Assembly (NCBI RefSeq): GCF_013423785.1
Contig: NZ_CP058952.1
Location: forward strand, 2,631,665 to 2,695,664
From: Chitinibacter fontanus
GTDB lineage: Bacteria; Pseudomonadota; Gammaproteobacteria; Burkholderiales; Chitinibacteraceae
DNA length: 64,000 nt
Reading direction: 5' to 3'
Shown: in pieces, positions 2,912-26,270 of the stretch
How the letters are laid out: every line of letters starts with the position of its first letter
How positions within the stretch are numbered: position 1 is the first letter of the stretch
Notes under the pieces: generated by a model
The model's input: the letters and a program-made list of their open reading frames with translations, nothing else
The model's database searches: none
What the model was told of the DNA's origin: nothing
Made by a program: the position numbers and the translations under genes

Positions 2912-3706
2912 CTAGATAACAATCTGATATCCGTAATTATCGCCATGCTTGGCCTTTAAGGATCTTATATGGCAAAAAGGATTTTCCCCATAAAAATCGG
3001 TAAATTTCCTTGACATTAATTGAGTGTCATTGAACCCTGAGTGTATTGATGCATATTCAATTGATTTTCCATCTAGAAGGAACTTTATTACAAAGAACAA
3101 CCTAACCGAATCTAATATATGAGAAAAGATTGAGCCTTCGTTTGAAAGGTTTTTTATTAAGTTTGTTGTGGTGATTGAAAACTCATGCGATGCTGAGATT
3201 AACGAATGATCAGTAGTAGGATTCTTGGCTATTAGGTGCTTTATTCTCTGGTATAGTCTTATTGTGTTGTTGTGAAACAATCCCGAAAGTAGGCCGTTTC
3301 TATTTAATTCTGCGTAAAATGATTTTATTAAGAATAATTCTGTTGATGTTCCGAAGTTGATGCTGTTTTCTTTTATTTCGAAAATCAAATCGTAAAAATG
3401 CTTAACTTCAGACCTTGGTTTGTGCGTGAGATATTTTTCTAAGCAGCATTCTTTGCTTGTTGATTCTGGATTAATTGTGAAACTTATTGATCTGGCTTTG
3501 AATTCAGTGTTGTGGCAGTCGAATTCTATCCATAAATAGGTGTCGGCTTTTACAAACATCCATTCTCCATGGCTCATGTTTTTTGATGAACATAAATCAA
3601 AAACTCTTAATTTTCCTGATGTTAATTCTATTATGGTTGGTGAAGTAAATAAGACATAGTTTTTATTTTTAAAAATAGTGCCATCAATGTTATTAATGAA
3701 AATCAT
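2912..3706 (-). CDS. AraC-family transcriptional regulator, divergent
   Basis: A 264-residue protein. Its last ~100 residues fit the AraC/XylS two-helix-turn-helix DNA-binding domain: a first helix block around LIKNLSNEGSIFSHILDSVR, and a second with the hallmark order IEYASIHSGFNDTQLMSRKF followed by FYGENPFCHIRS. The last matches the family signature G(F/Y)-x5-F-x3-F(K)-x3-G-x2-P in degenerate form. The N-terminal part would be a sensor or dimerisation domain but is not recognisable. Very AT-rich codon use matches the neighbouring oxidoreductase, which is its likely target. Classification rests on pattern and domain layout only, so it is moderately secure. Confidence 0.6.
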   Translation of the reverse strand: MIFINNIDGTIFKNKNYVLFTSPTIIELTSGKLRVFDLCSSKNMSHGEWMFVKADTYLWIEFDCHNTEFKARSISFTINPESTSKECCLEKYLTHKPRSEVKHFYDLIFEIKENSINFGTSTELFLIKSFYAELNRNGLLSGLFHNNTIRLYQRIKHLIAKNPTTDHSLISASHEFSITTTNLIKNLSNEGSIFSHILDSVRLFFVIKFLLDGKSIEYASIHSGFNDTQLMSRKFTDFYGENPFCHIRSLKAKHGDNYGYQIVI

Positions 3707-4089
3707 GATTTATATGGATTCCATTTAATGGTTGCTTGATATTTTAAATTATAAAATTGATTTCTTAACTGGGTTATGATTTTCTGTTTTTGGTGAAGCT
3801 GTATTTGTCTAGCTTCTGGGTGTGGGAATGTTGTACATTTTTATTATATTTCGGCCTATATCTGGCTTTTTTACTGGTGGTAAACATTCTGTTTTCATTG
3901 ATGTTTGCTTTTCGTCTTTGGTGGATTTTTATTGCCCCGATTAGGTATTGTAAACTAGTATTTCTAGTTTTATTTTAAGCGTCATGAAATTATGTTTTAA
4001 TATATTTTTAATAATAAATTTTAAAGTTTTGTTTATTGCTGTTTTTTTTGATTAATATAAAAATATATGTATTTAGTAGGCTTTGTTGC
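3707..4089. other. AT-rich noncoding spacer between AraC-type regulator and IS element
   Basis: No convincing gene is present. A 62-codon plus-strand frame from a TTG (3790-3978) encodes a very hydrophobic, Trp/Phe-rich stretch but has no Shine-Dalgarno sequence, so I treat it as chance in AT-rich DNA. The last 11 bases (4079-4089, GGCTTTGTTGC) duplicate the outer tip of the adjacent IS terminal repeat. Confidence 0.4.
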
Positions 4090-5495: not shown

Positions 5496-6560
5496 ATGAA
5501 TAAACGATTCGCCCCTGATTTGACCGCTTTTCAGGCAAGATACGAAGCGCAAAAAATTGCTTTCGGCCCTGTGGTCTTTCAGTGTGTACGAATTGCTTGG
5601 CAAAAAGGCTTGCTAGCCAGCCTAGCGCAAGGGGCGTTGAGTTGTGAGCAATTGATGGCGAAGCATCAAATGAGCGCTTATGCACTGAATGTATTACTTG
5701 AAAGTTGCTTATCTGCAGGGGTGGTCGCGTCAGTGAACGATTGCTGGCAGCTCGAAAAAACCGGCTATATGCTGGTCAATGATAAGCTCACGCAGGTTAA
5801 TTTTAATTATGTTCACGATGTATGCTGGCAAGGTTTGTTTGATTTAGAAAAATGCCTTGATGCCGAGCAACCCTTGGGTTTGGCGCATTTAGGGCCATGG
5901 CAAACTATTTATCAAGGTTTATCGGATTTACCGGAGCCAGCCAAAACATCATGGTTTGAATTTGACCATTATTATTCCGATTCAGCTTTTCCTGAAGCCT
6001 TGCCTAAAGTCTTTAAATCAGCGCCGCAGCGCTTGATGGATATTGGGGCAAATACTGGTAAATGGGCGAAACAGTGCTTGGATTTTAATCCAGACGTTGA
6101 GCTCACATTAGTTGATTTACCCATTCAGCTGAATGTTGCGCAGGCCAATTTATCGGCTGCAGGCTTATTAGGCCGCGTATCCTTAGCTCCGCGCGATTTA
6201 CTTTCGGCAGATCTGGCGTTTCCAAAAGGGCACGATGTCATCTGGATGAGCCAGTTTTTATCGTGTTTTTCGCTAGACAATATTGGCCGAATATTAAGCA
6301 AAGCCGCCGAAGCGCTGCCCACGGGCGGCAAGCTGTATATTCTGGATACGTTTTGGGATAGACAGCAATTTGATATTGCAGCCTATTGCCTGATCAATAC
6401 TTCGCCTTATTTCACCTGCATGGCCAGCGGGAACAGCAAAATTTATCGTGCTACTGAGTATATTGCCTGCGCAGAGCAAGCAGGTTTAGTGCTGGGCCAA
6501 AGTTGGGATGGTTTGGGAATTTCGCATACTTTGCTGCAATTTCACAAAACCGGCGCTTAA
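5496..6560 (+). CDS. apeB: SAM-dependent methyltransferase of the aryl polyene cluster (ApeB-like)
   Basis: A 354-residue class I methyltransferase of the O-methyltransferase type. The N-terminal winged-helix/dimerisation region (LASLAQGALSCEQLMAKHQM) precedes the SAM-binding motif LMDIGANTGKWAKQCLDFNPDVELTLVDLP, and then VIWMSQFLSCF. In known aryl polyene pathways a methyltransferase of this kind modifies the aryl head group (ring C- or O-methylation). Here it is transcribed toward the 3' end of the large minus-strand ape operon, with only a shared terminator between. ATG 5496 is preferred over an in-frame TTG at 5457; AAGAAG lies about 13 bases upstream, a poor ribosome site. The ApeB name rests on cluster context plus family. 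Confidence 0.8.
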   Translation: MNKRFAPDLTAFQARYEAQKIAFGPVVFQCVRIAWQKGLLASLAQGALSCEQLMAKHQMSAYALNVLLESCLSAGVVASVNDCWQLEKTGYMLVNDKLTQVNFNYVHDVCWQGLFDLEKCLDAEQPLGLAHLGPWQTIYQGLSDLPEPAKTSWFEFDHYYSDSAFPEALPKVFKSAPQRLMDIGANTGKWAKQCLDFNPDVELTLVDLPIQLNVAQANLSAAGLLGRVSLAPRDLLSADLAFPKGHDVIWMSQFLSCFSLDNIGRILSKAAEALPTGGKLYILDTFWDRQQFDIAAYCLINTSPYFTCMASGNSKIYRATEYIACAEQAGLVLGQSWDGLGISHTLLQFHKTGA

Positions 6561-6580
6561 AACATAAAGCGCCAGTTTTT
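6546..6580. terminator. Bidirectional terminator between apeB-like gene and apeR
   Basis: The arms AAAACCGGCGCTT (6546-6558) and AAGCGCCAGTTTT (6567-6579) pair with a single G-T type mismatch. The hairpin begins inside the last codons of the methyltransferase and is followed by a T run on the plus strand. Its A-run mirrors this for the convergent ape operon. Confidence 0.7.
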
Positions 6581-6589
6581 GAGGCTTGC

Positions 6590-7828
6590 CTAGGCCGCGG
6601 TTTGTGCCCAGCGCTGGAAAATCAGCGAAGTATTGATGCCGCCAAAGGCGAAATTATTGCTCATCACATACTCGCATTGCATTTCACGCCCAGCTAATGG
6701 CAGATAATCCAATGCGCCACAAGCTGGGTCGAGCGAGTCGAGATTCACATTGCCCGCAAACCAGCCGCCATTGAGCATTTCAATGCTCATCCACGCTTCT
6801 AGCGCGCCACAAGCGCCGAGCGTATGACCAAAATAGCCTTTGAGTGAGCTCACAGGCATTTTGGCGCCAAACACGCGATGTGTTGCCTGACTCTCAGCAA
6901 TATCGCCTTGATCGGTTGCTGTGCCGTGCGCGTTGACGTAGCCAATGTCACTTGCGCTTAAATCGGCGTTGTCGAGCGCAAGGCGCATCGCGATTTCCAT
7001 CGTTGCACTTTCTGGGCGGGTCACGTGTGCGCCGTCCGAATTGCAGGCAAATCCGACGATCTCGGCATAAATATGCGCGCCGCGCGCTTGGGCGTGTTCG
7101 AGTTCTTCCAAAATCAGCGTGCCAGCGCCTTCGCCGATCACTAAACCGTCACGGTCTTTATCGAATGGGCGCGGCGTGGTGTGCGGCGTATCGTTCTTGG
7201 TGCTGGTCGCATACAGCGTATCAAACACCATCGCTTCGGTCGGGCACAATTCTTCTGCACCGCCTGCCACCATCAGTTTTTGCTGGCCATATTTAATGGC
7301 TTCATACGCGTAGCCAATACCTTGGCTGCCTGAGGTGCACGCGCTCGAAGTCGGAATAACGCGGCCTTTCAAACCAAAATAAACGCCGATATTCACCGCT
7401 GCCGTGTGGCTCATCATACGCAAATACGAATTGGCATTCAGGCCATTCACGTCTTTTTCAATCAGCGAATAGCCAAACGCCTGAATCGCCTCGGTACTGC
7501 CGGTCGACGAGCCATACGCGACGCCCATTCGCCCATCCTGAATTTGTGGATTATTCAGTAAGCCCGCATCTGCTAGCGCGCATTCGGTGGCGTACACGGC
7601 CATCTGCGCAACGCGGCCCATCGAGCGCGTGTGCTTGCGAGTGTAGTGCGCGGGCAGCGCAAAATCAGGTACGGGGCCAGCCAAATGCGTATTGAGGTCG
7701 CGATACTGCGCCCACTCGTCAATACGGCGAATGCCAGTTTGGCCCGCACGCATGGCATTCGCAATCGTAGCCCAATCCGAACCCAAAGAAGTAATGCCGG
7801 CCATTCCGGTGACAACAACACGTTTCAT
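6590..7828 (-). CDS. apeR: Aryl polyene beta-ketoacyl-ACP synthase (ApeR)
   Basis: A 412-residue FabF-type ketosynthase. The active-site Cys is C164 in SSACTSGSQG. The two catalytic histidines are H301 (NAHGTATDQGD) and H335 (GYFGHTLGACGALEA), with the conserved Lys at 330, so a complete condensing enzyme is predicted. In aryl polyene pathways ApeR is a second ketosynthase, thought to support initiation or early elongation beside the ApeO/ApeC pair. It is the last gene of the minus-strand operon. Unlike its upstream neighbours it is separated from apeQ by 93 bases, and no strong ribosome site is visible before its ATG. Confidence 0.92.
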   Translation of the reverse strand: MKRVVVTGMAGITSLGSDWATIANAMRAGQTGIRRIDEWAQYRDLNTHLAGPVPDFALPAHYTRKHTRSMGRVAQMAVYATECALADAGLLNNPQIQDGRMGVAYGSSTGSTEAIQAFGYSLIEKDVNGLNANSYLRMMSHTAAVNIGVYFGLKGRVIPTSSACTSGSQGIGYAYEAIKYGQQKLMVAGGAEELCPTEAMVFDTLYATSTKNDTPHTTPRPFDKDRDGLVIGEGAGTLILEELEHAQARGAHIYAEIVGFACNSDGAHVTRPESATMEIAMRLALDNADLSASDIGYVNAHGTATDQGDIAESQATHRVFGAKMPVSSLKGYFGHTLGACGALEAWMSIEMLNGGWFAGNVNLDSLDPACGALDYLPLAGREMQCEYVMSNNFAFGGINTSLIFQRWAQTAA

Positions 7829-7921
7829 ATTTGCTTAATGTGGCTTTGTTTTATGCAGGGTATTTTACCTGAGCGCGAGGGGTCATTACCGCGCGATGAT
7901 CAATCAGAGCTGTTCGCGGCT

Positions 7922-8650
7922 TTAACACAGCCCGCCGTTCACCGAAATCACTTGTCGTGTCGTATACGCCGCGCCTTCACTCATCAAGTAGCTCACTGCG
8001 GCGGCCACTTCCTCGGGGCGGCCCATGCGAGCCATTGGAATCATTTTTTTGATTTCTTCCAGCGCGGGTAAATCGTCGACCATTTCGGTTTCAATCAGAC
8101 CCGGCGCGACGCAATTGACGGTGATTTTGCGGCTGGCCAATTCAAGCGCTAGCGCTTTGCACGCGCCGATCAAGCCAGCTTTGGCGGCGCTGTAATTGAC
8201 TTGCCCACGGTTGCCAATCAGGCCCGAGACCGACGCAATCGCGACGATGCGACCGGCTTTGCGGCGGCGGATCATCGGCATCGAGAGCGGATGAACGACA
8301 TTATAAAATCCATCCAAATTTGTCCCGAGCACCAAATCCCAATCGTCGTCAGACATGGCTGGAAAAGCCGTGTCGCGCGTAATGCCGGCGTTGATCACCA
8401 CGCCATACGGTGCGCCGTGTGCTTCAATATCCGCTTCGATCGCCGCGCGGGTTTGCGCGCGATCACTAACGTCAAAGCAAATCAGCCGCGCTTGCCGTCC
8501 CAGCTCGGTGATTTCAGCTTGCAGCTGGCGCACGCTCGCCTCATTGCTGCGATAGTGCAAAATCAAATCAAAACCGTCTTGCGCCAGTTTGCGCGCCATC
8601 GCTTGGCCTAGGCCACCGCTCGCGCCAGTAATTAAAATTGTGTCGTTCAT
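7922..8650 (-). CDS. apeQ: 3-ketoacyl-ACP reductase (ApeQ, FabG-type)
   Basis: A 242-residue short-chain dehydrogenase/reductase. It has the NADPH-binding TGASGGLG (residues 8-15), N111 and the catalytic Ser/Tyr153/Lys157 set in VNYSAAKAG. It would reduce the beta-keto group after each condensation during polyene assembly on the ACPs. The ATG overlaps the apeP stop codon (ATGA), indicating translational coupling. The C-terminal QVISVNGGLC is typical of FabG-like proteins. Assignment is secure for family and strong for pathway because of the flanking ketosynthases and dehydratase. Confidence 0.93.
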   Translation of the reverse strand: MNDTILITGASGGLGQAMARKLAQDGFDLILHYRSNEASVRQLQAEITELGRQARLICFDVSDRAQTRAAIEADIEAHGAPYGVVINAGITRDTAFPAMSDDDWDLVLGTNLDGFYNVVHPLSMPMIRRRKAGRIVAIASVSGLIGNRGQVNYSAAKAGLIGACKALALELASRKITVNCVAPGLIETEMVDDLPALEEIKKMIPMARMGRPEEVAAAVSYLMSEGAAYTTRQVISVNGGLC

Positions 8651-9111
8651 GCTGCTAAAAATCCCTCTGGGTTAGGCGGCTGAAAGCCGTTGATGCGGGC
8701 GCTGAGTACGATCTCGCTGCCGTCGCTGTGTCGCCCCGTGACCGTTGTTTCAAACACACCCATGCCGTTGTCGCCTTGAATCACTTCGCTGCACTTGACG
8801 GTTAAGTGCGTGCCTGGTTTAAAGCTGGCGACATTGCTCTCAAAAGCGCGGGTGCCGAGTAAAAAGCCGATTTTGGGCGCTTCGCCACGCACGTGCGCGC
8901 GGCAACCACTGAGCGCTGCGACCGCTTGCGCCATGTATTCAATCGCCACATACGCAGGCACGTCGCCGTTGAGCGCCGCATCGTTAAAAAAATGATCACA
9001 CGGTACGGTTAAGGCCGCAGTGAGGTTTTGTTCGTCAAATTCGATGATTTCATCGAGTAAAATCATCGGCGCGGCGTGCGGTAAAACTTCGGCGGGAGTG
9101 TAGCGGCTCAT
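8647..9111 (-). CDS. apeP: Hotdog-fold 3-hydroxyacyl-ACP dehydratase (ApeP)
   Basis: A 154-residue hotdog-fold protein with LPHAAPMILLDEI at the N-terminus and AYVAIEYMAQAVAALSG in the central helix, like ApeP/FabZ-related dehydratases. It would remove water from the 3-hydroxyacyl intermediate to create the conjugated double bonds. In characterised aryl polyene systems ApeP works together with a second hotdog protein, ApeI. Here the ApeI-like domain is fused to the acyl-activating enzyme encoded at 17460-19139. Start and stop overlap those of apeO and apeQ by four bases. Confidence 0.9.
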   Translation of the reverse strand: MSRYTPAEVLPHAAPMILLDEIIEFDEQNLTAALTVPCDHFFNDAALNGDVPAYVAIEYMAQAVAALSGCRAHVRGEAPKIGFLLGTRAFESNVASFKPGTHLTVKCSEVIQGDNGMGVFETTVTGRHSDGSEIVLSARINGFQPPNPEGFLAA

Positions 9112-10292
9112 GGTTCAACTCCTTGGAAAATCAGGCTGACATTATTGCCGCCAAACGCAAAAGAATTACTCATCGCAGTCTTGAGCGGGTAGCTTTGCCC
9201 AGCCTGCGGCCAATGCAGAGCGGGCAAACTCGTATCAAAGTCACCATCGCCGATTTGCGGCGGCAAATGCTGCATTGGATTGAATTGCTTTTGCAGTAAT
9301 AAATAACAAAAAGCCGCTTCAAGTGCGCCAGCAGCACCTAGGGTATGTCCGGTTAGCGCTTTGCTAGAGCTGCTTGGCGGCAAATACGCTCCAAATGTAT
9401 CTACAACGGCTTGGCTTTCCATCGCGTCGTTCAGCGGTGTGGCGGTGCCGTGTAAATTTAAGTACGAAATCTGCGCGGGGCTTAGTTGCGCATCGACTAA
9501 AGCCGCTTGCATCGCAGCACTGGCACCGCGGCCTTGCGGGTGCGGGGCGGAAATATGATGCGCGTCGCAGCTCGCGCCGTAGCCAGCGAGGCGTACTGGG
9601 CCGATGTTGTGACTCATGATGAACAGCGCGGCCGCCTCGCCGATATTGATGCCGTCCCGCGCTGCGCGAAACGGATTGCACGGCGCAGCACTGACCGATT
9701 CGAGCGCGGCAAAACCATTCAAGGTCAATCGGCACAAGCTATCTACGCCGCCGCATAGCACGACGTCGACCAAGTTCATTTTCAATAAGCGCCGCGCGGT
9801 GATCAGTGCACGTGCGCTGCTCGAACACGCGGTCGAAATCGTATAAGCCGGGCCTTTGATCTGATAAAGCTCGGCCAAAAATCGCGCCGGATCGCCCATT
9901 TCATGACGCTGGTAGCTGTAGTTGGGCTGAGTGGGCAAACCTTGTTCGAGCTGCGCCAGCGCGCTCTCGCTTTCGGCAATCCCCGACGTACTGGTTCCCA
10001 ATACAATCGCCACGCGCGCTGCGCCGTATTGCGCTAGCGCGGCCTGTATCGGCGCGTCGATTTGCAAGGCTGCAGCGTACAGCTGTTGATTGTTTCGGCT
10101 GTGATAGTGCGCCAGTGCGGGCGGCAGCTGCGGCAGTTCGCCCTTGGCTTGGCCGACCCACGTTGGGCGTTCAATCAGCGCTGCGTCGGCGGGTGTCAGT
10201 CCGCGCTGGCCCGACAGTAGGGCCGTGATGTTGCCGTCAAGACCGATACCCAAGGGGGATATCAGCCCCAGATGATTTAAATAGGCGCTCAC
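9108..10292 (-). CDS. apeO: Aryl polyene elongating ketosynthase (ApeO)
   Basis: A 394-residue ketosynthase with active-site C156 (TISTACSSSAR), H281 (NLHGTATPLND), K311 and H316 (KALTGHTLGAAGALEA). In type II aryl polyene synthases this protein pairs with a chain-length factor that has lost the Cys (ApeC; here 20968-21657) to extend the polyene. The start codon overlaps the preceding lipoprotein gene by four bases (ATGA). The protein is slightly shorter than FabF. Position between the lipoprotein and the ApeP-type dehydratase matches the published ape gene order as I remember it. Confidence 0.92.
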   Translation of the reverse strand: MSAYLNHLGLISPLGIGLDGNITALLSGQRGLTPADAALIERPTWVGQAKGELPQLPPALAHYHSRNNQQLYAAALQIDAPIQAALAQYGAARVAIVLGTSTSGIAESESALAQLEQGLPTQPNYSYQRHEMGDPARFLAELYQIKGPAYTISTACSSSARALITARRLLKMNLVDVVLCGGVDSLCRLTLNGFAALESVSAAPCNPFRAARDGINIGEAAALFIMSHNIGPVRLAGYGASCDAHHISAPHPQGRGASAAMQAALVDAQLSPAQISYLNLHGTATPLNDAMESQAVVDTFGAYLPPSSSSKALTGHTLGAAGALEAAFCYLLLQKQFNPMQHLPPQIGDGDFDTSLPALHWPQAGQSYPLKTAMSNSFAFGGNNVSLIFQGVEP

Positions 10293-16720: not shown

Positions 16721-17463
16721 CGCTGAAACCACCGTGCGATCAGGCGTGGGCTGCGCCAGAGCATGCCGAAAAACAATTTGGCATGCATGCGGGAAATCAA
16801 CACATTGTCGCGCCAGACGGCGAAATGCGATACGCCATCGAGCGGGTATTGTACCGGGGTCGGCAATTGAAGAATCCGCATGCCCGACCAATACAGCCGC
16901 ACCATCACTTCAACGTCAAAATCCATACGGCTGCCAAGCTTTTCGCGCTCAAGCAGCGCACACGTTGCCGCCAGCGGATAGACGCGAAAGCCGCACATCG
17001 AGTCTTTAATTGCGAACGATAGCGTGTTAATCCACACCCAGATATGCGTGGCGTAGCGCCCATACAGCCGACCTTTGGGTACCGACTCGTCGTAAACCGG
17101 CTGACCGGCAATCAGCGTAGCAGGCTGAGTTTGTGCTGCGCGAATAAATTGCGGTAGATCTGGGGTATGGTGTTGACCGTCAGCATCAATCTGAGTTGCG
17201 TGGCTATACCCTAATGATTTTGCCCAGAATAAACCGGCGCTGACTGCGCCGCCTTTGCCTTGATTGACCGCCAAGCGTTTTAGGCTGACCCAGTCGGCGT
17301 GTTGCTGGGCTAATTGTTCAAGCACGCTTTGACACGCGGCGTGGCTACCGTCGTCGATCAGCAAGCAGGGTAGTTTAAATTCACGCAGCGATTCGAGCAC
17401 CGCTCCAATCGCGTGCTCGTGGTTGTAAACCGGAATGACGATGCAAGGCTTGAATTGACTCAT
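16717..17463 (-). CDS. Family 2 glycosyltransferase of the aryl polyene cluster (ApeJ glycosyltransferase part)
   Basis: A 248-residue GT-A glycosyltransferase. It has the nucleotide-binding start CIVIPVYNHEHAIGAVLESL, then LLIDDGS and the metal-binding DADGQHH, and ends with a basic amphipathic segment. It resembles dolichol-phosphate-mannose synthase-like enzymes. In the pathway it probably glycosylates the lipid anchor to which the polyene is attached. Four-base overlaps couple it to the ligase/dehydratase upstream and the acyltransferase downstream. Confidence 0.87.
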   Translation of the reverse strand: MSQFKPCIVIPVYNHEHAIGAVLESLREFKLPCLLIDDGSHAACQSVLEQLAQQHADWVSLKRLAVNQGKGGAVSAGLFWAKSLGYSHATQIDADGQHHTPDLPQFIRAAQTQPATLIAGQPVYDESVPKGRLYGRYATHIWVWINTLSFAIKDSMCGFRVYPLAATCALLEREKLGSRMDFDVEVMVRLYWSGMRILQLPTPVQYPLDGVSHFAVWRDNVLISRMHAKLFFGMLWRSPRLIARWFQR

Positions 17464-19139
17464 GCGGCAAACACCAAACGTCCCGACGAGTGCGCGCCTT
17501 GGCTTGAGGTATACGCAAAGCTCAGGCGCTGCCGCGTTTCATCCCAATCCAGTTGCAAACTTAATTCAGCGCCCGGCTGGATAATTTGTTGGAATTTGAT
17601 CACGTCCATGCGCTGAAATTGGCCCGTAATCGCAAAATACTGGCGCGCCAATTGCGCCGCCCAGTGAATTTGCGTTACGCCCGGCAAAATCGGCGTGCCC
17701 GGGAAATGGCCAGCAAAATAGGCAATGTCGGCTTTAACGTGCAGCTGCAATTGGCATTGTGCGCCGTTGACTTGCTCGGCGACGATTTGCGGTAGCAGCA
17801 CCGCGGGCATAAATAGCGCGCTGAGTGCGGCCTGCGTGGTTTTGCCTTGCGCATTCATCGGTAAGGCTGCAACAAAACGCCAGCGGCGCGGCAACGCCAA
17901 GGTTTCAATTTGCCCGGTGAGCTGTTTTTTCAATAGTTTGATGAACGCGGTTTTACCCAGTTGAGCAAGGAGGGCGTTGCCTGCCAGATTAAGCACTAAC
18001 ACCGCATTCAAACTCTGGCGACCTTGCTCATTGGCGGCAAATACCGCAGCATCGTCCACCTCGGGTAAATGGGCTAAGGCTTGCTCGACGCCAACCAAGG
18101 CGATGCGTTTTTCTTCGATTTTCACAATCCGGTCGAGCCGCCCCAGCAGGGTAAAGCTGCCGTCGCTGGCTAAATTGGCCGCGTCGTCCATCGTATGCCA
18201 TTGCGTATCGGGTAAATGCGCCGAGCAAATTTCCAGCGCGCCGTCCTGATTGACGCGCAAAGCGACGTCGGGCAAGGCTTGCCAAGCAGCCGATTGAGCG
18301 CCTTGCGTGCGCCATGCCACGCCGCCGGTTTCGGATGAACCAAATATTTCCTGAATCGGTAGCGCGCTGCGCTGGCTGATTTCACGCGCCACTTCAGCGC
18401 CGAGTACGCCTGCAGATGAAAATAGGGCCGCTAAATGTGGTGCAACTTCATGCCAAGCAAGGTGTTCGCCCATGCGCTTGTAGTGTGCTGGGCTAGCGAC
18501 CCAACTCACTTTGGCGTGCGCTAGGCTGAGCGCAAATAAATGCTCGGGGAAAAACGCCGTCTCGGCGGCAAACACCCGCCCGACTGCAATCGGCCACAAC
18601 ACGCGAAACAGCAGACCATACAAATGCTGCTGGCTCACCGTGCTTAAAATCACCGAATCAGCGACTTGCGCGCCGAATAGACTTTCCAGTGCTTGCACTT
18701 CAGCAAGCAATTGCGCATAGCTTTTGCGGATTGCTTTGGGCTCACCGCTTGAACCTGAGGTGTAAATATATAACTGGCACGCCGTGCTATTGATTTCTTG
18801 CAGCAGGTATTGATGCCCAGCGGGCGCGGCAACAATCAGATCACTGATGTTCAGGCCAAAGTCTTCGTCGTCCGACAGGCGCAGCGTACACGGCGTAGCG
18901 TGCACGCGAGTTTCATCGCCCGGTAAGTGCACGATTTTGCCGGTTTGCCAGGCTGCAAACAGCGCGACAGCAAACCAGTATGCGTCGCGACAAAACAGGC
19001 AGATGGCGTTTTCGTCGTGCGCGGCCAAAGTGTGCGCCAAAGCGGCCACTTGCGCGGCAAACTCGGTGCTGGAAATAAGCCGATCTTGTTGAAATGCAAA
19101 ATCGTAAGCAGGGGTATTGCTATCTAGCCATTTATTCAT
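17460..19139 (-). CDS. Acyl-activating enzyme fused to hotdog dehydratase (ApeH-ApeI fusion)
   Basis: A 559-residue two-domain protein. Residues ~1-440 form an ANL-family adenylating enzyme with the P-loop YIYTSGSSGEPKAIRKS and EIFGSSETGGVAWR; it would activate the aryl starter acid and load it on ACP. Residues ~450-559 form a FabA/FabZ-like hotdog domain with HFPGTPILPGVTQIHWA, like ApeI dehydratases. In E. coli these are separate proteins (as I recall), so this is a natural fusion of starter loading and dehydration. ATG 19139 is chosen for its four-base overlap with the membrane-protein stop; an open frame further upstream is not used. Confidence 0.9.
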   Translation of the reverse strand: MNKWLDSNTPAYDFAFQQDRLISSTEFAAQVAALAHTLAAHDENAICLFCRDAYWFAVALFAAWQTGKIVHLPGDETRVHATPCTLRLSDDEDFGLNISDLIVAAPAGHQYLLQEINSTACQLYIYTSGSSGEPKAIRKSYAQLLAEVQALESLFGAQVADSVILSTVSQQHLYGLLFRVLWPIAVGRVFAAETAFFPEHLFALSLAHAKVSWVASPAHYKRMGEHLAWHEVAPHLAALFSSAGVLGAEVAREISQRSALPIQEIFGSSETGGVAWRTQGAQSAAWQALPDVALRVNQDGALEICSAHLPDTQWHTMDDAANLASDGSFTLLGRLDRIVKIEEKRIALVGVEQALAHLPEVDDAAVFAANEQGRQSLNAVLVLNLAGNALLAQLGKTAFIKLLKKQLTGQIETLALPRRWRFVAALPMNAQGKTTQAALSALFMPAVLLPQIVAEQVNGAQCQLQLHVKADIAYFAGHFPGTPILPGVTQIHWAAQLARQYFAITGQFQRMDVIKFQQIIQPGAELSLQLDWDETRQRLSFAYTSSQGAHSSGRLVFAA

Positions 19140-19684
19140 ATTTGCTTCTTGCGAATACGCTGCCGTAGTATCCATTCGCCAGCCATCAGTAAACCCATCA
19201 AGACATAGGCAATCAGGCCATTGTATAAAGTCCAATCTTCCCAACTGGCATACAGCGCCGTCCACAGCGCGATACTGCCGTTGACGATGAAAAATCCGCA
19301 CCACACTTGCGTGACTCGCCGCGTGTAAACGACTCCACTGTCAGGTAAGTCGGGCTCGGTCAGGCGCGCTAAGCGTTCTATCAGGCTTTGCCCGCGCCAT
19401 AGGCTGCTGGCAAAAACGCCGAGCATCGCCAAATTAATTAGCACCGGATAATAGCGCAGCAAGTCGGCCTGTTTTTGGATGTACAGTATGCCTGCCAACG
19501 CAAGAATAATAGCGACTTGCAGCGCTATACCTGGCTGGCGATAAGCGCTCAGACCACGCATAATTGCCAACATTAGCAGCAGCGCGGCAAAGGCATCGGT
19601 GCTTGCATGTCCGAGTGAAAAATACACCAGCGCAGGGTAGGCCAGCGCCAAGAGCGCCCCGATCAGCGCCAGTGCCGCTTTCAT
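19136..19684 (-). CDS. apeG: Aryl polyene cluster inner-membrane protein (ApeG)
   Basis: A 182-residue hydrophobic protein with about six membrane helices: two near the N-terminus (AALALIGALLALAYPALVYF), further ones through residues 35-90, and a C-terminal pair ending in a basic RQRIRKKQI tail. Homologues of this COG4648-like type sit between the ACP and ligase genes in ape clusters. The function is unknown. The start codon directly abuts the apeF stop codon, and its own stop overlaps the next start (ATGA). Confidence 0.8.
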   Translation of the reverse strand: MKAALALIGALLALAYPALVYFSLGHASTDAFAALLLMLAIMRGLSAYRQPGIALQVAIILALAGILYIQKQADLLRYYPVLINLAMLGVFASSLWRGQSLIERLARLTEPDLPDSGVVYTRRVTQVWCGFFIVNGSIALWTALYASWEDWTLYNGLIAYVLMGLLMAGEWILRQRIRKKQI

Positions 19685-19930
19685 TTAGGCTTGCTGTAAT
19701 TTGTAAACTGCGTCGACGACGTCTTGCACCGTGCGCACTTGTTTAAAGTCTTCAGGGCTGATTTTTTTGCCGACTAAAGATTTTAATTCGGCCGCCATAT
19801 CAACGGCATCGATGCTGTCGATTTCTAGATCGGTGTAGAGCTGCGCGTCGGGGGTGATGCGGGCTGGGTCGATTTCAAATAGCTCGGCAATAATGCGGAC
19901 TACTTCACTGTGAATCGCCGTTTTATCCAT
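19685..19930 (-). CDS. apeF: Acyl carrier protein (ApeF)
   Basis: An 81-residue acidic ACP. The phosphopantetheine attachment Ser is S39 in the motif DLEIDSIDAVDM. It would carry starter and growing polyene chains. It lies 20 bases after the first ACP gene, with a purine-rich ribosome site (AGAGAGAAAC) just before the ATG, and directly abuts the membrane-protein gene. Confidence 0.92.
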   Translation of the reverse strand: MDKTAIHSEVVRIIAELFEIDPARITPDAQLYTDLEIDSIDAVDMAAELKSLVGKKISPEDFKQVRTVQDVVDAVYKLQQA

Positions 19931-19950
19931 GTTTCTCTCTCTATTATTTT

Positions 19951-20211
19951 TTATTGGCGCTGCGCGCTGACAAATTCAGCCAAACTGCGAATTGATGCGA
20001 AATGCTGGCGATTTTCGGCCGAATCGCTTTGCAATTTAATGCCGTAGCGTTTTTGTAGGCCAACGCCTAATTCAAGCGCATCGATAGAATCAAGGCCTAA
20101 GCCTTCATTAAATAAGGGGCTTTCGGTATCAATATCGTCGACCGTAATGTCTTCAAGATTCAGCGTCTCAATAACAAATAATTTAATTTCGTTGATCAGC
20201 GTGTTGTCCAC
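19951..20211 (-). CDS. apeE: Acyl carrier protein (ApeE)
   Basis: An 86-residue ACP with attachment Ser S42 in GLGLDSIDALEL. Two distinct ACPs are usual in aryl polyene synthases, one suggested for starter handling and one for elongation. The two here differ in the sequence around the Ser, consistent with separate roles. The start lies 29 bases inside the end of the acyltransferase gene. Confidence 0.92.
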   Translation of the reverse strand: MDNTLINEIKLFVIETLNLEDITVDDIDTESPLFNEGLGLDSIDALELGVGLQKRYGIKLQSDSAENRQHFASIRSLAEFVSAQRQ

Positions 20212-20971
20212 GGTTTAATTCCTGAGTGTAAAGTGCGGTGAGGTCGCTATTAAGGCGGCGAGCGGCAATGGGGTCGCTATGGGCTTGGCGATAATGACTT
20301 AAATCGATATCGTCGAGGACCTTTAATGTCATGACGAATCGGCGCGGCGGAATTTTGTACCACTTCTCGTTCTTGGTCAAAGTCGTTGGGCTAACGGTGA
20401 TGAGCACTGGCGTTAATACCCGCGCGCCTTTGATCGCGATCGTCGCTGCGCCACGGTGAAATTGCAGGCTTTGCCCGGGCGTGGTGCGTGTGCCTTCGGG
20501 AAAAATAATCAGGCAATCGCCGTTTTGCAGTGCGTTCACCCCGTCGAGCACCATTTGCTCGCTGCTGTGATTCGGGATAAATCCTGCCGCCGTCACTGGG
20601 CCGACCATGCACGGGTTGCGCCACAGGCTGCCTTTGACGACGCAGTTAGGCTCATTGATGTGCGCCATCATAAACACGACATCAAGCAATGAAGGATGGT
20701 TGGCAATCACCAGCTGGCCGGGCCGGCCGAGCAAATGCTGGCCTTCGATCTGCCATTGCATAATCCCCAAAAAGCGCATCCAGCATAAAAATTGGTAAAA
20801 AACCCAATGAATGATTTTCCTAGCTTGCTGTTGGCGGCGCGTAATCGGCGTTGCCATATTCATCAACGGGAAAAATAAACCCAATAAAGAGCCACCAATA
20901 CCAAAGCTGCTAAATGCAATTGCTGTACCCACTAGGCGTCGAACCCAGTTCAGTTTCAGTTGCCAAGTCAT
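20183..20971 (-). CDS. apeD: 1-acylglycerol-3-phosphate-type acyltransferase (ApeD)
   Basis: A 262-residue PlsC-type acyltransferase with H-x4-D as NHPSLLDVVF and the substrate motif FPEGTRTTP. One hydrophobic segment near the N-terminus (AIAFSSFGIGGSLLGLFFPL) anchors it to the inner membrane. It likely forms part of the lipid anchor for the polyene. ATG 20971 overlaps the stop of the upstream gene (ATGA). An ATG six codons earlier (20989) is less likely. Confidence 0.88.
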   Translation of the reverse strand: MTWQLKLNWVRRLVGTAIAFSSFGIGGSLLGLFFPLMNMATPITRRQQQARKIIHWVFYQFLCWMRFLGIMQWQIEGQHLLGRPGQLVIANHPSLLDVVFMMAHINEPNCVVKGSLWRNPCMVGPVTAAGFIPNHSSEQMVLDGVNALQNGDCLIIFPEGTRTTPGQSLQFHRGAATIAIKGARVLTPVLITVSPTTLTKNEKWYKIPPRRFVMTLKVLDDIDLSHYRQAHSDPIAARRLNSDLTALYTQELNRGQHADQRN

Positions 20972-21657
20972 AATTTGGTCCATTCCCAATCACAATCATT
21001 TCCAGTCGTGATTAATTGGGACTGGCTAGATTGCCACCAGCTGAAAAAATCATGTCTTGGGTTGGAGGGATGGTCGCTAGATTTTGCGATTGCACTTAAC
21101 TGCAGATTGGCTGTACCCGTATCAATCATGCAGGAAAGGGCAAAGCGTTGTTTTGTTTCCAAATCATCAGGGCTCAATACCTCAGGGACTGCTTCGTCTG
21201 AGTACATCAGCAAGACCTGAGGCTCTGGAGCGTCACAGAGCATGCCAGCAACCTCAACGAAGGCCAATGGCAATGTGTCTAGGCCGGCGCTGATTGCGCT
21301 ACACTCATCTTTCTGTTGTGCCAGAATACTCCAAAGTCCTTGCGCTGCATTGTGCACCGAATGACTAAACATTGCGGGAGATATGAGCTCACCATGCGCC
21401 AAGGTTTTGAGCATCTCTACAGTTTGTTGTATTTCCCCATGTCTCGAGGCAAATATGCATCGTATTGGTGTATTTTCAGGATTGATTTGATGAGCCAACT
21501 CTAGGTTAATACGCGCTAGAGCAGATAAACGGCGGCGTTGCAATGCAGGGATAAAATCAAGGCGCGGGGTAGTATCGTTATCGTTGTGCCAATGCCTAGT
21601 GCGCGAAATATTGAGTTGGATTGACCAAAGTGCTGTGCGCATTGCGGGTAAAGCCAT
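20968..21657 (-). CDS. apeC: Beta-ketoacyl synthase chain-length factor (ApeC)
   Basis: A 229-residue ketosynthase-like protein lacking the catalytic Cys: the region equivalent to the active site reads SAISAGLDTLP. FSHSVHNAAQGLWSI is typical of the short chain-length factors in aryl polyene clusters. It should pair with ApeO and set polyene length. It is the first gene of the minus-strand operon. The first ATG is used; an internal ATG five codons in (21642) is an alternative. No strong ribosome site or clear sigma-70 promoter is visible in the 130 AT-rich bases upstream, which are shared with the divergent secreted-protein gene. Confidence 0.85.
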   Translation of the reverse strand: MALPAMRTALWSIQLNISRTRHWHNDNDTTPRLDFIPALQRRRLSALARINLELAHQINPENTPIRCIFASRHGEIQQTVEMLKTLAHGELISPAMFSHSVHNAAQGLWSILAQQKDECSAISAGLDTLPLAFVEVAGMLCDAPEPQVLLMYSDEAVPEVLSPDDLETKQRFALSCMIDTGTANLQLSAIAKSSDHPSNPRHDFFSWWQSSQSQLITTGNDCDWEWTKL

Positions 21658-22951: not shown

Positions 22952-24129
22952 GGGTTGCCATGTGCAACCCAAACAGCCCCCTTCATAGAAGGGGGCCGAG
23001 TGAGTGATTGCCTCTGCGTTAATTGGCATGCCGTATGGCCTTTGTGTTAAGCATGCCCCTCGTTTCTGCCCTAAATCATGTTCCTTTTTGATGGCTGACA
23101 CAGTCAGCGCAATTGAGTATTTCGCTCGATTAAAGCGTCTGGAGGATTTCAGTCGCCAAACTGATTTCCCCATGCGATGTGCGCGCCAACGCACATCGCC
23201 ATTCCACCGTTCATTGCATCATCTTTGCGTCTTGTCGTCTTCACAGCTCTTCCTGACTTTCGATCAGGCATCATGGCCGAAAAGACCCGCTCATACTCTT
23301 TCGGGATTGGCGGAGTCGTTACTTCCGTTCCGAATTGGTGCCACCCAATTCGGACCTCCAAGAGCATTTCGCACCACTTAGTTCACATCTTACGTTCATG
23401 CAGGAACGCTACTGGCTCACATTACGGCAATAACAAAGGGCTGAAACCTCGTTTCAGGGAACCGAACCGGGAAAAGCGTCTCCCTTACTCCTTAAGTTAT
23501 TGTTGCTCCGTGATGCTTCCACCAATTTGCAGGCACTGTTGGCCCTATATAGCTTCTGCACTTTCCATCTTGGACCCATACGGCCCGTTTACAGGGTTAA
23601 GCTCTCAGTCCAGCTTGCAGCTTCCATGTCGCTACTCATGGTCACTGACACGCTCGGCCGATGCGTCCAAGACACTTGTCTTGTCGCACCGAGGCATACC
23701 TCACGATATGCGGTAACGCAGCCCTCCTGGATGGCACAACTTCCGCGATTTTCTCGCGGCTAATTGGGTGAGACTCGCACTCACTTTTCATATGAACAGG
23801 AATATCAGGGCATTTGCTCCCTGAGTCCGTTTCGTGTTCGCACCGGCACGCCGAGTGTTGCTCGGCTATTCACGAGATAAAGCAATGGGGTTACTCCGAA
23901 TCGATGATTCGGGATTAGTCCATTGCCTCCCTCTTGCACGCAGCAAGCTCCATTACGAGCACTACGCGCTACAAGACTCTCTGCTGGCAAGCAGATTCCA
24001 GCACGGCTGGAGATGACTGACGATGGGCGTTGGCGCGCCCCTCGTCGAACAGTGTTCGATGATGTTGGCGCATCCTTCGCTACAGATTCCTTTTGGTTTG
24101 TCCACGCTCGGTATAGCGCCGCATTGCGG
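22952..24129 (-). ncRNA. Candidate giant structured noncoding RNA (GOLLD/ROOL-like size and setting)
   Basis: No acceptable gene lies in these ~1.2 kb on either strand, yet the sequence is filled with hairpins. Examples (plus coordinates): 23882-23926 (arms GCAATGG and CCATTGC enclosing CCGAATC and GATTCGG), 23850-23866, 23743-23759, 23668-23683, 23441-23457, 23330-23353 (9-base stem), 23174-23199 (10-base stem), 23094-23108, 22976-22996 (9-base stem) and 22952-22970. Two 5'-region hairpins (24061-24074, 24025-24040) carry the loop CGCCAA on the minus strand; two 3'-region hairpins (23174-23199, 23149-23164) carry the complementary TTGGCG. I favour the minus strand because its loops and joints are purine-rich with GNRA-like caps, for example CGAAAG at 23257-23263. 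One GTAA-capped stem (about 23709-23720) favours the plus strand. The ends are set by the outermost hairpins and are approximate. Known giant RNAs of this type sit in phage-like elements near tRNAs. Confidence 0.62.
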
Positions 24130-24259
24130 ATCGTTGCGTGGAAATTTGATTTTTTGCTTCTAAATTCCCAGTTCATTTATTCACAGAGCCCCTTTCTAAT
24201 CGCATGCACCTCCATTGGGTTTAGCGCTATACAAAGAATCTAATTCTGTGTGTAGCGCC
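24130..24259. promoter_or_regulatory. Divergent spacer between candidate ncRNA and island gene
   Basis: About 130 AT-rich bases separate the inferred 5' end of the minus-strand RNA from a plus-strand gene starting at 24260. Both promoters should lie here. I could not pick reliable -10/-35 boxes. Confidence 0.35.
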
Positions 24260-24967
24260 ATGCTTGCCGCTTTCAATATCAAAATCCCAAAAAACCTGAC
24301 CGCAGCAATGCAGCTGCTGCAGTTGTATATGCAATCTGGCCATTACTACTGGATAAGTGGGGTTGTCGCACGGCCAAAATTGCATCGTCTGGTTGTCAAA
24401 TTGAATGCATTTCGGATTGCGCGAGATGCGCCAGGGCGAGCCTATGACAAAGCAAAAGGTTTAGCGTCTACGCACCTTGTCGTGTGCGAACTGAGTCATG
24501 GTGAGCTGCTCTGGGTACTTGTGGGTACAGCAGGGAAAGGTGGTTTAATCGACCCTGAGCAGATAGACATCGGTACGATTTACGATTCGCGTCTGGCCGG
24601 CCAGCATTTGCGTTTCAAGCACTATGAGTTGCTGCATACAGAAAAACGCATCAAGCAAGTTCGCGACACGACATGGACGTGGCGAATTGCACCGCAGCGC
24701 TACAAAGAGCACGAAGCATTTATCGTCCAGCTTATCCGACAGCGTGATAGAGATGGTCTGAATACAGAATTGGTGGCCCTGGCTGCCATGCCACAATTTA
24801 GTGGGGTGCGCGGGCAGGTACTCAAGTTGTTCGCTGAAACTAAAAAACTGGGTCTGAAATTTAGATTGGGAGAACTCGCCGTTCCGACATTGCCTTATAT
24901 GACTCGCATGAGTATTTATACTGAGCCAGCTAGGACACTGGACACTCTCTGTGAAACTGTTTTATGA
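24260..24967 (+). CDS. Conserved-looking mobile-element protein of unknown function
   Basis: A 235-residue protein without signal peptide or membrane segments. The N-terminal half has SGHYYWISGVVARPKLHRLV and RAYDKAKGLASTHLVV. The middle has an HGELLWVLVGTAG strand region and TTWTWRIAPQRYKEHEAFI. I recall proteins with this HYYW...L...TWTW layout in integrative elements and plasmids of Proteobacteria, always uncharacterised; that is memory, not a search. ATG 24260 is the first ATG. A TTG at 24215 and a GTG just upstream are alternatives, and no good Shine-Dalgarno is seen for any. It is divergent from the candidate ncRNA and is followed by a strong hairpin at 24988-25018. Confidence 0.7.
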   Translation: MLAAFNIKIPKNLTAAMQLLQLYMQSGHYYWISGVVARPKLHRLVVKLNAFRIARDAPGRAYDKAKGLASTHLVVCELSHGELLWVLVGTAGKGGLIDPEQIDIGTIYDSRLAGQHLRFKHYELLHTEKRIKQVRDTTWTWRIAPQRYKEHEAFIVQLIRQRDRDGLNTELVALAAMPQFSGVRGQVLKLFAETKKLGLKFRLGELAVPTLPYMTRMSIYTEPARTLDTLCETVL

Positions 24968-25027: not shown

Positions 25028-25360
25028 TTATTCGTAAGTAATGTGAACGAGGGGGCGAGTTAAGTTCGCGCAAAAATAGCGATATTGACTAAACCAGCCA
25101 CGGTGGCGGTATTGATAAGGGACATACGCATCGTCAATCGCTAAGTTGTGCTGCGTGTACTCAGCGTGCTGATGTCGCCAGTAGCTTAGTCGTACTCGAA
25201 AGCCATTCCACTGCAGATTGATTGACTGGTACTGGGCGCCTATTTGCTTGGCTTGTAGAAAAAAAGCTTGAGTCTGCATTTCAATTGACGGCAGTCGCTT
25301 GATGCTTCTTGCCAGTTCTGGGGATAAACACGGTAAATGTTGAAGTAATGTGCTGGACAT
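25028..25360 (-). CDS. Hypothetical island protein
   Basis: A 110-residue protein that is basic and very rich in aromatic residues and His/Gln (SYWRHQHAEYTQHNL, YVPYQYRHRGWFSQYRYF), with no signal peptide or recognised domain. ATG 25360 is used. The frame stays open upstream for 54 more codons without a convincing start, through a region with a G-run and an inverted repeat that looks like untranslated leader. It converges on the 24260-24967 gene. Compact size and position beside an AlpA-type regulator suggest a mobile-element function, but none can be named. Confidence 0.5.
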   Translation of the reverse strand: MSSTLLQHLPCLSPELARSIKRLPSIEMQTQAFFLQAKQIGAQYQSINLQWNGFRVRLSYWRHQHAEYTQHNLAIDDAYVPYQYRHRGWFSQYRYFCANLTRPLVHITYE

Positions 25361-25747
25361 ATTGCGGTGACCTATATCAGATAAAAAATCCCGAAACCCT
25401 CTTCTCACGGAGGGGGGGGCGGGACTATACGGGGTGAGAATACCGGGATATAGGAACCGGCCAGCACATGGCTGCCCGCATAGCCCGCCCATAGGCGTAG
25501 CAATGCTCGCACCGCACCGCAAAACGTCATCAAAACGAATTGCAGCGCTGGTGCGCCTAAATCTCCCGAGTTCTCACGCTCGACCACTGAATTGGCAGTG
25601 GCGGGCAGACTATAAGCGAAAGCAATTAAGATTGGCAATCATCCGGCTAGCTTCGGTATGTGACATCGACTTGCTCCTGAGGGATTAGCAAAGGCATGCT
25701 CCTCGTTCATGCCTTTGCTGTTGATGAAGCGACGCGTGAGAATTGAA
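25361..25747. other. Gene-poor leader region with nested inverted repeat
   Basis: Upstream of the 25028-25360 gene lies a nested dyad: ATCCCG (25388-25393) with CGGGAT (25444-25449), enclosing TTCTCAC (25402-25408) with GTGAGAA (25434-25440). An eight-G run sits in the central loop. The second copy of the AGCAAAGGCATG hairpin is at 25687-25719. Small overlapping frames here (for example 25405-25638, TTG start) lack ribosome sites. The layout resembles a structured leader or small regulatory RNA region, but no family is recognised. Confidence 0.4.
25687..25719. repeat. Hairpin repeat, copy 2
   Basis: The arms AGCAAAGGCATG (25687-25698) and CATGCCTTTGCT (25708-25719) are identical to those at 24988-25018; only the loop differs. 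It lies 28 bases past the stop of the minus-strand alpA gene and could terminate it. The loop side GCATGCTCCTCGTT also resembles 23051-23064 near the 3' end of the candidate ncRNA (13 of 14 bases). Confidence 0.72.
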
Positions 25748-25948
25748 TTATTTCAGCATGCCCGAATGAGTATTCAATGATGAGAGAAGAGACTCGATGT
25801 CACTACGCCGCCACGCGGCGATGCGCAGGCCGAGTTTAACTTGAGCCGGAAAACGGCCAGTTTTGATGCCCGCATACCAAGTTGCCCGCGAGACGGGAAT
25901 GATGGCCAGAACTTCTGGCAGGCGTAACAGTGAATCTGTGGTGTTCAT
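25748..25948 (-). CDS. alpA: AlpA-family helix-turn-helix regulator
   Basis: A 66-residue MerR-like winged helix-turn-helix protein. SLLRLPEVLAIIPVSRATWYAG, then GRFPAQVKLGLRIAAWRRSDIE, is the AlpA signature of P4-like prophage and integrative-element regulators, which often activate excisionase or integrase genes. ATG 25948 has GGAAAC upstream. An upstream in-frame extension of seven codons is possible but less likely. Immediately upstream is a 7-base inverted repeat (25959-25986). No integrase gene is found nearby, so its target in this island is unknown. Confidence 0.85.
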   Translation of the reverse strand: MNTTDSLLRLPEVLAIIPVSRATWYAGIKTGRFPAQVKLGLRIAAWRRSDIESLLSSLNTHSGMLK

Positions 25949-26270
25949 TACTTGTTTCCATGACCCCAAAGGATGATCCGGTCATGTGCCCTCTGTTTTG
26001 CATGTATTCCTCGGCCGACGATTGGGTTGCTCGCAGGTATCCGGTTGCGTCAAACGACGCGTGAAAAAGTATAGGAGGGTGGGGCGGGCGTGATGACGGC
26101 TTTGTGTGCCCTTCAATCAAAATATTTTTTGATGCGAAAAAAATAAAAATGGGTGGGGTCGATGGATGAAGAACATGTGCGGCGGGGTGAGGCACTGCGA
26201 GACAAACTGTGTACGAACCTGTGTACAGCAAAAAGTTTGGCTTGAATGATGAGGTTGGGGGTGGAAATGA
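25949..26270. promoter_or_regulatory. Upstream region of alpA; otherwise empty spacer to tRNA-Leu
   Basis: CATGACC (25959-25965) and GGTCATG (25980-25986) form an inverted repeat 11 bases upstream of the alpA start, a good place for an operator. The remaining ~280 bases up to the tRNA terminator show no gene and no repeat of the tRNA 3' end that would mark an attachment site. Confidence 0.4.

Follow-up and report, generated by a model that had tools for sequence, protein, structure and literature searches.

Within the window, by which we mean the whole stretch of 64,000 nucleotides of Chitinibacter fontanus DNA analysed here, the minus strand holds hairpins with mutually complementary loops at the two ends of a candidate RNA, and the question raised by this locus is whether these loops pair and, if they do, in what kind of molecule and in whose service. 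The explanation towards which we lean on balance is that the locus represents an undescribed family of large non-coding RNAs of integrative elements and plasmids, with ends that kiss, which would form a ribonucleoprotein serving the element that carries it.

Extent and fold of the RNA

Sequence comparison predicts a large structured RNA of about 1.1 kb on the minus strand (22975-24105), its 5' end being placed by a conserved TATAC box and its 3' end by a terminator-like hairpin (22974-22998, minus strand) of 11 pairs, 8 of them G-C, for which the homologue G035 has a matching hairpin. Two models were drawn from this strand, R1 from the conserved core region (23710-23844) and R2 from the region conserved among close relatives (23239-23404), the latter being strong in only six close homologues and serving as a detector for the close clade only. 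Upstream, an intergenic region common to the RNA and a protein gene (24110-24232) has GCTATAC boxes in opposite orientations, one facing the RNA (24110-24119) and the other facing the protein gene (24224-24232). Similar boxes occur in the six-sequence alignment and it is possible that they are divergent promoters; a scan of the region with the sigma-70 consensus returned no site.

At the DNA level the RNA has homologues in G035 (78% identity), G373 (72%) and G198 (70%), and an 18-mer invariant in these three led to more of them in Vogesella urethralis, whose RNA sequence is identical to that of G373, in Chromobacterium alkanivorans and in a Zoogloea MAG. Two core regions, of 135 and 170 columns, were tested in six sequences: changes on both sides of the pair were found in 15 of 34 pairs in the first region (97.5% of cells paired) and in 21 of 44 pairs in the second (96.2%), and none of 500 shuffles was as good by these measures in either region; because the structures were themselves built from these alignments, the test is biased towards them. 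Two-sided changes affect 7 of the 10 pairs in the stem of an inner hairpin (23330-23353), which is helix 4 of A5. The core also has four pairs that remain G-U throughout the six sequences, from which the minus strand can be identified as the folded one. Evidence against a protein-coding gene comes from the gaps in the core alignment: 56 of the 59 runs have a length not divisible by three. The comparison shows the predicted RNA fold to be under selection. As regards the marks of a large ornate RNA, extensive covarying secondary structure was found in the two core regions across the six sequences, and loop-loop contacts were found as covariation of the loops, that is, as complementarity only.

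Complementary loops at the two ends

The first-pass annotation had described four hairpins on the minus strand, two with the loop CGCCAA and two with the loop TTGGCG, and all of them are present and correct to the base: H1 (24061-24074, GATG-CGCCAA-CATC) and H2 (24025-24040, GGGCG-CGCCAA-CGCCC) in the 5' part, HA (23174-23199, with a 10-bp stem and the loop TTGGCG) and HB (23149-23164, TCAGT-TTGGCG-ACTGA) in the 3' part. A third complementary pair had been overlooked, in which TGCCA in the loop of a further 5' hairpin absent from that annotation, H3 (23981-23994, minus strand, CTGC-TTGCCA-GCAG), matches over 5 nt the TGGCA in the loop of the inner 3' hairpin (minus strand, CCGAATTGG-GTGGCA-CCAATTCGG). 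The two-plus-two loop complementarity is not due to chance. Dinucleotide-preserving shuffles of the 1,158-nt minus-strand stretch gave such a set of hexaloops in none of 2,000 cases and any complementary hexaloop pair in 4, and among 314 other stretches of the window the set was found in none and any pair in 8. Neither H1 nor H2 is formed in the minimum-energy fold computed for the window RNA from the single sequence, where a GCGCC part and a GGCGC part of the two hairpins pair with one another instead.

Comparison with six close homologues separates the history of the loops from that of their stems. The loop is identical in all six for H1, H2 and HA, the 5' stem arms being 56%, 85% and 32% identical, and in HB the loop is 94% and the 5' stem arm 29% identical, with TTGGCA as the loop in L060; in these six relatives the diverged stems of the four hairpins nevertheless retain pairing at 4 or 5 of 5 positions. 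For G198 the two later 3' hairpins were used in the loop count (HA at +674), an earlier one at +638 having the loop TTGGTAG. Over the wider family, the loops of 5'-end hairpins containing NNYCA were set against the loops of hairpins in the 3' part containing TGRNN and any exact complement was scored, in a sample of 40 homologues from which the near-duplicates L010 and L081 had been dropped. Both kinds of loop were present in 38 of the 40, and 37 of these 38 had an exact 5-bp complement. When the sets of 3' loops were permuted among homologues, in a test that ignores relatedness, the mean was 24.9 and none of 20,000 permutations reached 37; with the commonest type (CGCCA/TGGCG) left out, the same test, again ignoring relatedness, gave 22 of 25, a value that none of 20,000 permutations reached, the permuted mean being 11.5. 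A stricter, 6-nt criterion found complements in 27 of 40 homologues and none in the other 13, compared with a shuffled mean of 2.15 and a maximum of 7 in 100 rounds, but it also counts complements outside the motif (for example in L059, L049 and G583a) and the 5-bp test is therefore the better one.

The loops usually number one to three at the 5' end, with the core NNCCA, and two to four towards the 3' end, with the core UGGNN, and the N positions covary between lineages. The types that switch on both sides by lineage are CGCCA/TGGCG, TGCCA/TGGCA, CGTCA/TGACG, TACCA/TGGTA and AACCA/TGGTT. In full, the loops read CGTCAA/TTGACG in pMtBL, CTACCAA/TTGGTAG together with AACCA/TGGTT in Paraburkholderia, CTAACCA twice with GTGGTT twice in Gluconacetobacter, CTGCCAA/TTGGCA in Azotobacter (TGCCAA/TTGGCA being found also in Halomonas) and TTGCCAG/CTGGCA in L052. 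Not all homologues follow this scheme: the Thermus locus (L083) has no 3' loop of the set; a transposase gene is inserted on the 5' side in Pandoraea (L077), where there is no scorable 5' loop; in Paraphotobacterium the complement extends over just 4 nt; the inner loop of G035 is TTGGCC; and the E. coli RNA (L072) is without the outer 3' loops and pairs only via an inner GTGGCA loop. We also observed, in the Gluconacetobacter plasmid pGDIPal5I (L074), a 3-kb gap without listed genes that contains more hairpins with GTGGTT-like loops.

That the loops are kissing contacts had been proposed from the window alone, with covariation in homologues as the check and loops varying independently as the observation that would count against it. 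The covariation was found, the stems diverge while the loops stay fixed, loop changes occur on both sides, and the check for independent variation did not refute the pairing. Kissing contacts are well supported by the covariation in the scorable homologues, and the 5' and 3' hairpin loops very probably pair.

Protein neighbour and mobile carriers

Divergent from the RNA lies a gene (24263-24967, plus strand) for what we call the partner protein, the open reading frame of which opens at 24215 and whose distant homologues align from about residue 21. The family is of about 200-250 aa; 22 of its members matched no family in Pfam, NCBIfam or PADLOC, and the window member matched none in PHROGs. 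R1 matches 38 of the 48 loci with the protein family (E up to 0.1), some of the 48 being near-duplicates (Azotobacter, E. coli and P. terrae), and in 37 of these 38, L054 being the exception, RNA and gene are divergent. Four further protein loci match the E. coli RNA by blastn (L046, L055, L073 and L079), one of them pMtBL (L073), in which both lie on the same strand. The sequences of L042 and L078 end before the position of the RNA, and at four protein loci no RNA was found (L008, L012, L080 and L038, this last with only about 1 kb of upstream sequence). Since there are protein loci without the RNA, and also some plasmids that carry the RNA and no detected protein, the two are not strictly coupled. 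We nonetheless consider it probable that the RNA works with the neighbouring protein.

When R1 was run with strict filters on 398 genomes of the phylum, only the genome of the window itself matched, and prevalence was for this reason estimated through the protein. It occurs in 18 of 200 relatives and in 8 of 369 genomes of the class, the genome of the window being counted each time. L008 (G024) is a natural RNA-less locus: its partner gene is 86% identical, but the similarity continues only into the beginning of the intergenic region and there is no RNA. In Novacetimonas hansenii C110 the partner protein is encoded on a 12-kb plasmid without detected RNA (L080), and an RNA match lies on a separate 6.3-kb plasmid without detected protein (L099).

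The predicted fold of the protein yielded a lead and nothing firmer. Foldseek returned nothing (best E 0.61), and in VIA-align every row had Z < 8; 9 of the 50 rows shown aligned at least 149 residues, and these are Prp8 and retron reverse transcriptase chains, with Z of 3.8-5.2 on a model of mean pLDDT 73. The stretch of Prp8 that is matched we take to be its reverse transcriptase-like domain. Comparison of the partner profile with eight reverse transcriptases gave a probability of 0.7%, three column-shuffled controls giving 0.1%, which does not support a relationship. As for a group II intron, no intron model matched at E up to 5, and the 22 protein members are without a Pfam hit.

Relatives of the RNA were found in Proteobacteria, on both integrative elements and plasmids, and in Thermus, on one plasmid. 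Of the 11 loci whose neighbours were scanned (20 proteins), 7 have a tyrosine integrase or a large serine recombinase close to the RNA, namely L041, L047, L048, L049, L053, L090 and L091. The partner protein is found on plasmids of between 4 kb and 70 kb, of which 26 of 26 are labelled non-mobilizable, with no known relaxase, by the MOB-suite labels in PLSDB. Among the records similar in DNA to the E. coli RNA, 34 of 35 bear the same label, 14 of the 35 being Acinetobacter records that match only 5-6% of the query. In E. coli the RNA resides on plasmids of about 30 kb, 15 of 5,426 genomes covering at least 80% of the query, and a 0.7-kb part of it, of about 96% identity, recurs on plasmids of 2.9-3.1 kb (5 among the matches listed and 2 further records); the three 3-kb plasmids examined all carry RepL, and neither of the two 3-kb plasmids known from PLSDB was among the matches listed in the partner-protein search there. 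Strain FHI_NMBU_11 has both the 30-kb and the 3-kb kind.

The 31-kb E. coli plasmid pSCU-171-2 (L100) encodes VirB4, VirB8, VirB9, VirB10 and a T2SS/T4SS-family ATPase and is typed as non-mobilizable; no relaxase was found on it by a Pfam scan of 9 of its 40 CDS and by the RefSeq annotation of the rest. The gene that follows its partner-protein gene shows a similarity to TraD coupling proteins (E 8e-7) that falls far short of the curated cut-off; against the clearer coupling proteins of G. diazotrophicus and pBN5 its product aligns over 556-566 aa, with an identity of about 30%. Of 51 loci, 8 have a coupling-protein match in the fetched flank, and these represent six distinct plasmids when the three entries from E. 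coli are treated as one. In addition, the flank of L086 has VirB4 and VirB11. A role in conjugation was considered for the whole family and rejected, because most loci are without a coupling-protein match in their flanks and conjugation cannot then be the general explanation.

Several other observations were made around these elements. The window island has no tRNA-derived direct repeat as an attachment site. On its minus strand a C4 antisense RNA (25412-25495) lies upstream of an open reading frame of about 110 aa (25028-25360), together with a gene for an AlpA-like regulator (25748-25969) and a tRNA-Leu, and these are perhaps the remnants of a P4-like island; two further loci have a C4 close to the RNA, L047 and that of G035 (L007), where its a1b1 target is present too. 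In L049 a Cas3-like protein with HD and helicase domains is encoded directly after the partner gene (6448-9519), and small Azotobacter plasmids with the large RNA also have an sRNA of the RsmZ/PrrB family (L009, 3668-3811; L010, 1282-1425). Next to the island, the minus strand of the window (17460-21657) has open reading frames with features of acyl carrier proteins, acyltransferases and AMP ligases, perhaps an aryl polyene cluster.

Placing these results into a functional model, we propose that the kissing of 5' and 3' loops would create addressed contacts by which the two ends of the RNA are joined, be it inside a single molecule or from one copy to another. We are less confident in proposing that the folded RNA may be the scaffold of a ribonucleoprotein formed with the neighbouring protein, which would help the carrying element to spread or to be maintained and would not act in a host pathway; that the RNA serves the mobile element is likely in our estimation. 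A more specific role suggests itself on plasmids of conjugation type with no recognised relaxase (the E. coli 30-kb type and those of Gluconacetobacter, Paraburkholderia and Pandoraea), in which RNA and protein adjoin the coupling protein. Relaxase and origin of transfer usually lie beside the coupling protein, and the kissing-loop RNA with its protein might be an RNA-based substitute for, or adapter to, DNA processing in plasmid transfer, an idea that we regard as improbable. If it were true, the tiny plasmids with only the RNA would be hitchhikers, as origin-only plasmids are.

Alternative readings and known large RNAs

That GC-rich loops should resemble one another by accident, in a coding or decaying region, might be argued from the short GC-rich core that they have in common, yet such an accident is scarcely credible in view of the shuffle and permutation tests, the lengths of the core gap runs (56 of 59) and the two-sided helix changes. 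The hairpins could alternatively act at the DNA level, as recognition sites formed in single-stranded DNA at the ends of an element, such as an origin of transfer or a transposon end, and the mobile setting and the inversion of the same loop motif at both ends would agree with this. However, on the other strand the four core pairs that are G-U in every one of the six sequences would turn into A-C mismatches, the core contains covarying helices throughout and a terminator-like hairpin stands at the 3' end, so that we judge a DNA-level role very unlikely. An RNA controlling plasmid replication or copy number is also unlikely: several carrier plasmids are only a few kb in size and ARRPOF is named for a plasmid replication region, but the RNA is found in integrative elements beside integrases, the carrier plasmids have differently named replication proteins (TrfA, RepL, RepA-type), and in pMtBL it occupies about 3050-3910, outside the OriR (1918-2759) of replicating vectors (PMC10033558), identical numbering being assumed.

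A further reading, which includes the self-assembly into chains or rings that the first-pass annotation had inferred, accepts the pairing and makes it intermolecular, the contacts linking separate copies to form a dimer, a ring or a cage as in ROOL, GOLLD, OLE or ARRPOF, and we take this as a serious possibility that falls somewhat short of probable. Mutually complementary loops are repeated at both ends of the RNA, as this arrangement would need, and the conserved kissing loops of ROOL and GOLLD, later proved intermolecular, had earlier been detected by covariation (PMC12286853). On the other side, sequence cannot tell pairing within a molecule from pairing between molecules, and the presence of several loop addresses in one RNA, such as AACCA and TACCA with TGGTT and TGGTA in Paraburkholderia, suits an internal fold equally well. 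The reading that we prefer, an element-borne RNA with kissing ends, is compatible with contacts of either type.

The first-pass annotation had also drawn a link to the RNAs of phages, which was not borne out, as no phage carrier was found and the carriers are plasmids and integrative elements. GOLLD and ROOL are carried by phages or prophages, often near tRNA islands; the window has a single tRNA about 2 kb from the RNA and no tRNA island. Neither the window RNA at the DNA level nor two proteins of the partner family matched any of 50,697 phage records, and searches of IMG/VR with patterns and a profile gave no confirmed member, these scans needing exact short matches. Two IMG/VR contigs with a 17-mer matched neither R1 nor R2, and the same holds for L061 and L062, two of the five pattern hits in genome contigs.

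GOLLD, ROOL, OLE and ARRPOF are all families in Rfam 15. The window region had no match in it at the gathering score and one meaningless hit in a lax scan (E = 1.6), and L007, 13 related loci and 12 more gave no hit to any of these four. Among the matches listed in searches of open-licence PMC papers there was no description of the window RNA family. Given that no Rfam model matches and that carriers and neighbours differ, we regard the predicted RNA as a family new among the large ornate RNAs, marked by its loop code and its protein neighbour. Large ornate RNAs comprise few classes, of unknown function, and what is known of their kissing contacts comes from a few recent cryo-EM studies. The window family adds to them a loop-pairing code that changes by lineage and a protein that recurs beside the RNA, and it occurs naturally on plasmids of E. 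coli down to 2.9 kb. Assembly, protein binding and effects on the carrier are thereby testable in laboratory strains of E. coli. The family may also bear on the spread of type IV secretion plasmids without a recognised relaxase.

OLE RNA is chromosomal, in extremophilic Gram-positive bacteria, and works with dedicated protein partners (OapA). It has in common with the window RNA that both are large and structured, whereas the window family is without an Rfam match and its protein neighbour without a Pfam family. In ICP1 an abundant transcript of about 800 nt from orf-less space is likened by its authors to GOLLD and ROOL (PMC7567579); unlike the window family, the ncRNAs of ICP1 and PLE belong to a Vibrio phage and its satellite, the sequence comparison with them consisting of the searches of phage collections. 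ARRPOF, described in PMC12641628 as a large structured plasmid RNA that forms a ring-like homodimer, is likewise a large structured RNA of plasmids, but it takes its name from a Fusobacterium plasmid replication region and the window family is mostly proteobacterial and also found in integrative elements. For ROOL and GOLLD, PMC12286853 gives covarying loop-loop contacts and an unknown function, and for ROOL no known protein partner; the lengths there are 659 nt for ROOL env-120 and more than 800 nt for many GOLLD RNAs, compared with about 1.1 kb for the window RNA. Unlike them the window family has no match in Rfam or in the phage records and usually lies beside a protein gene; like them, it would be a large ornate RNA that mobile DNA carries, rich in hairpins and with loop-loop contacts that covary.
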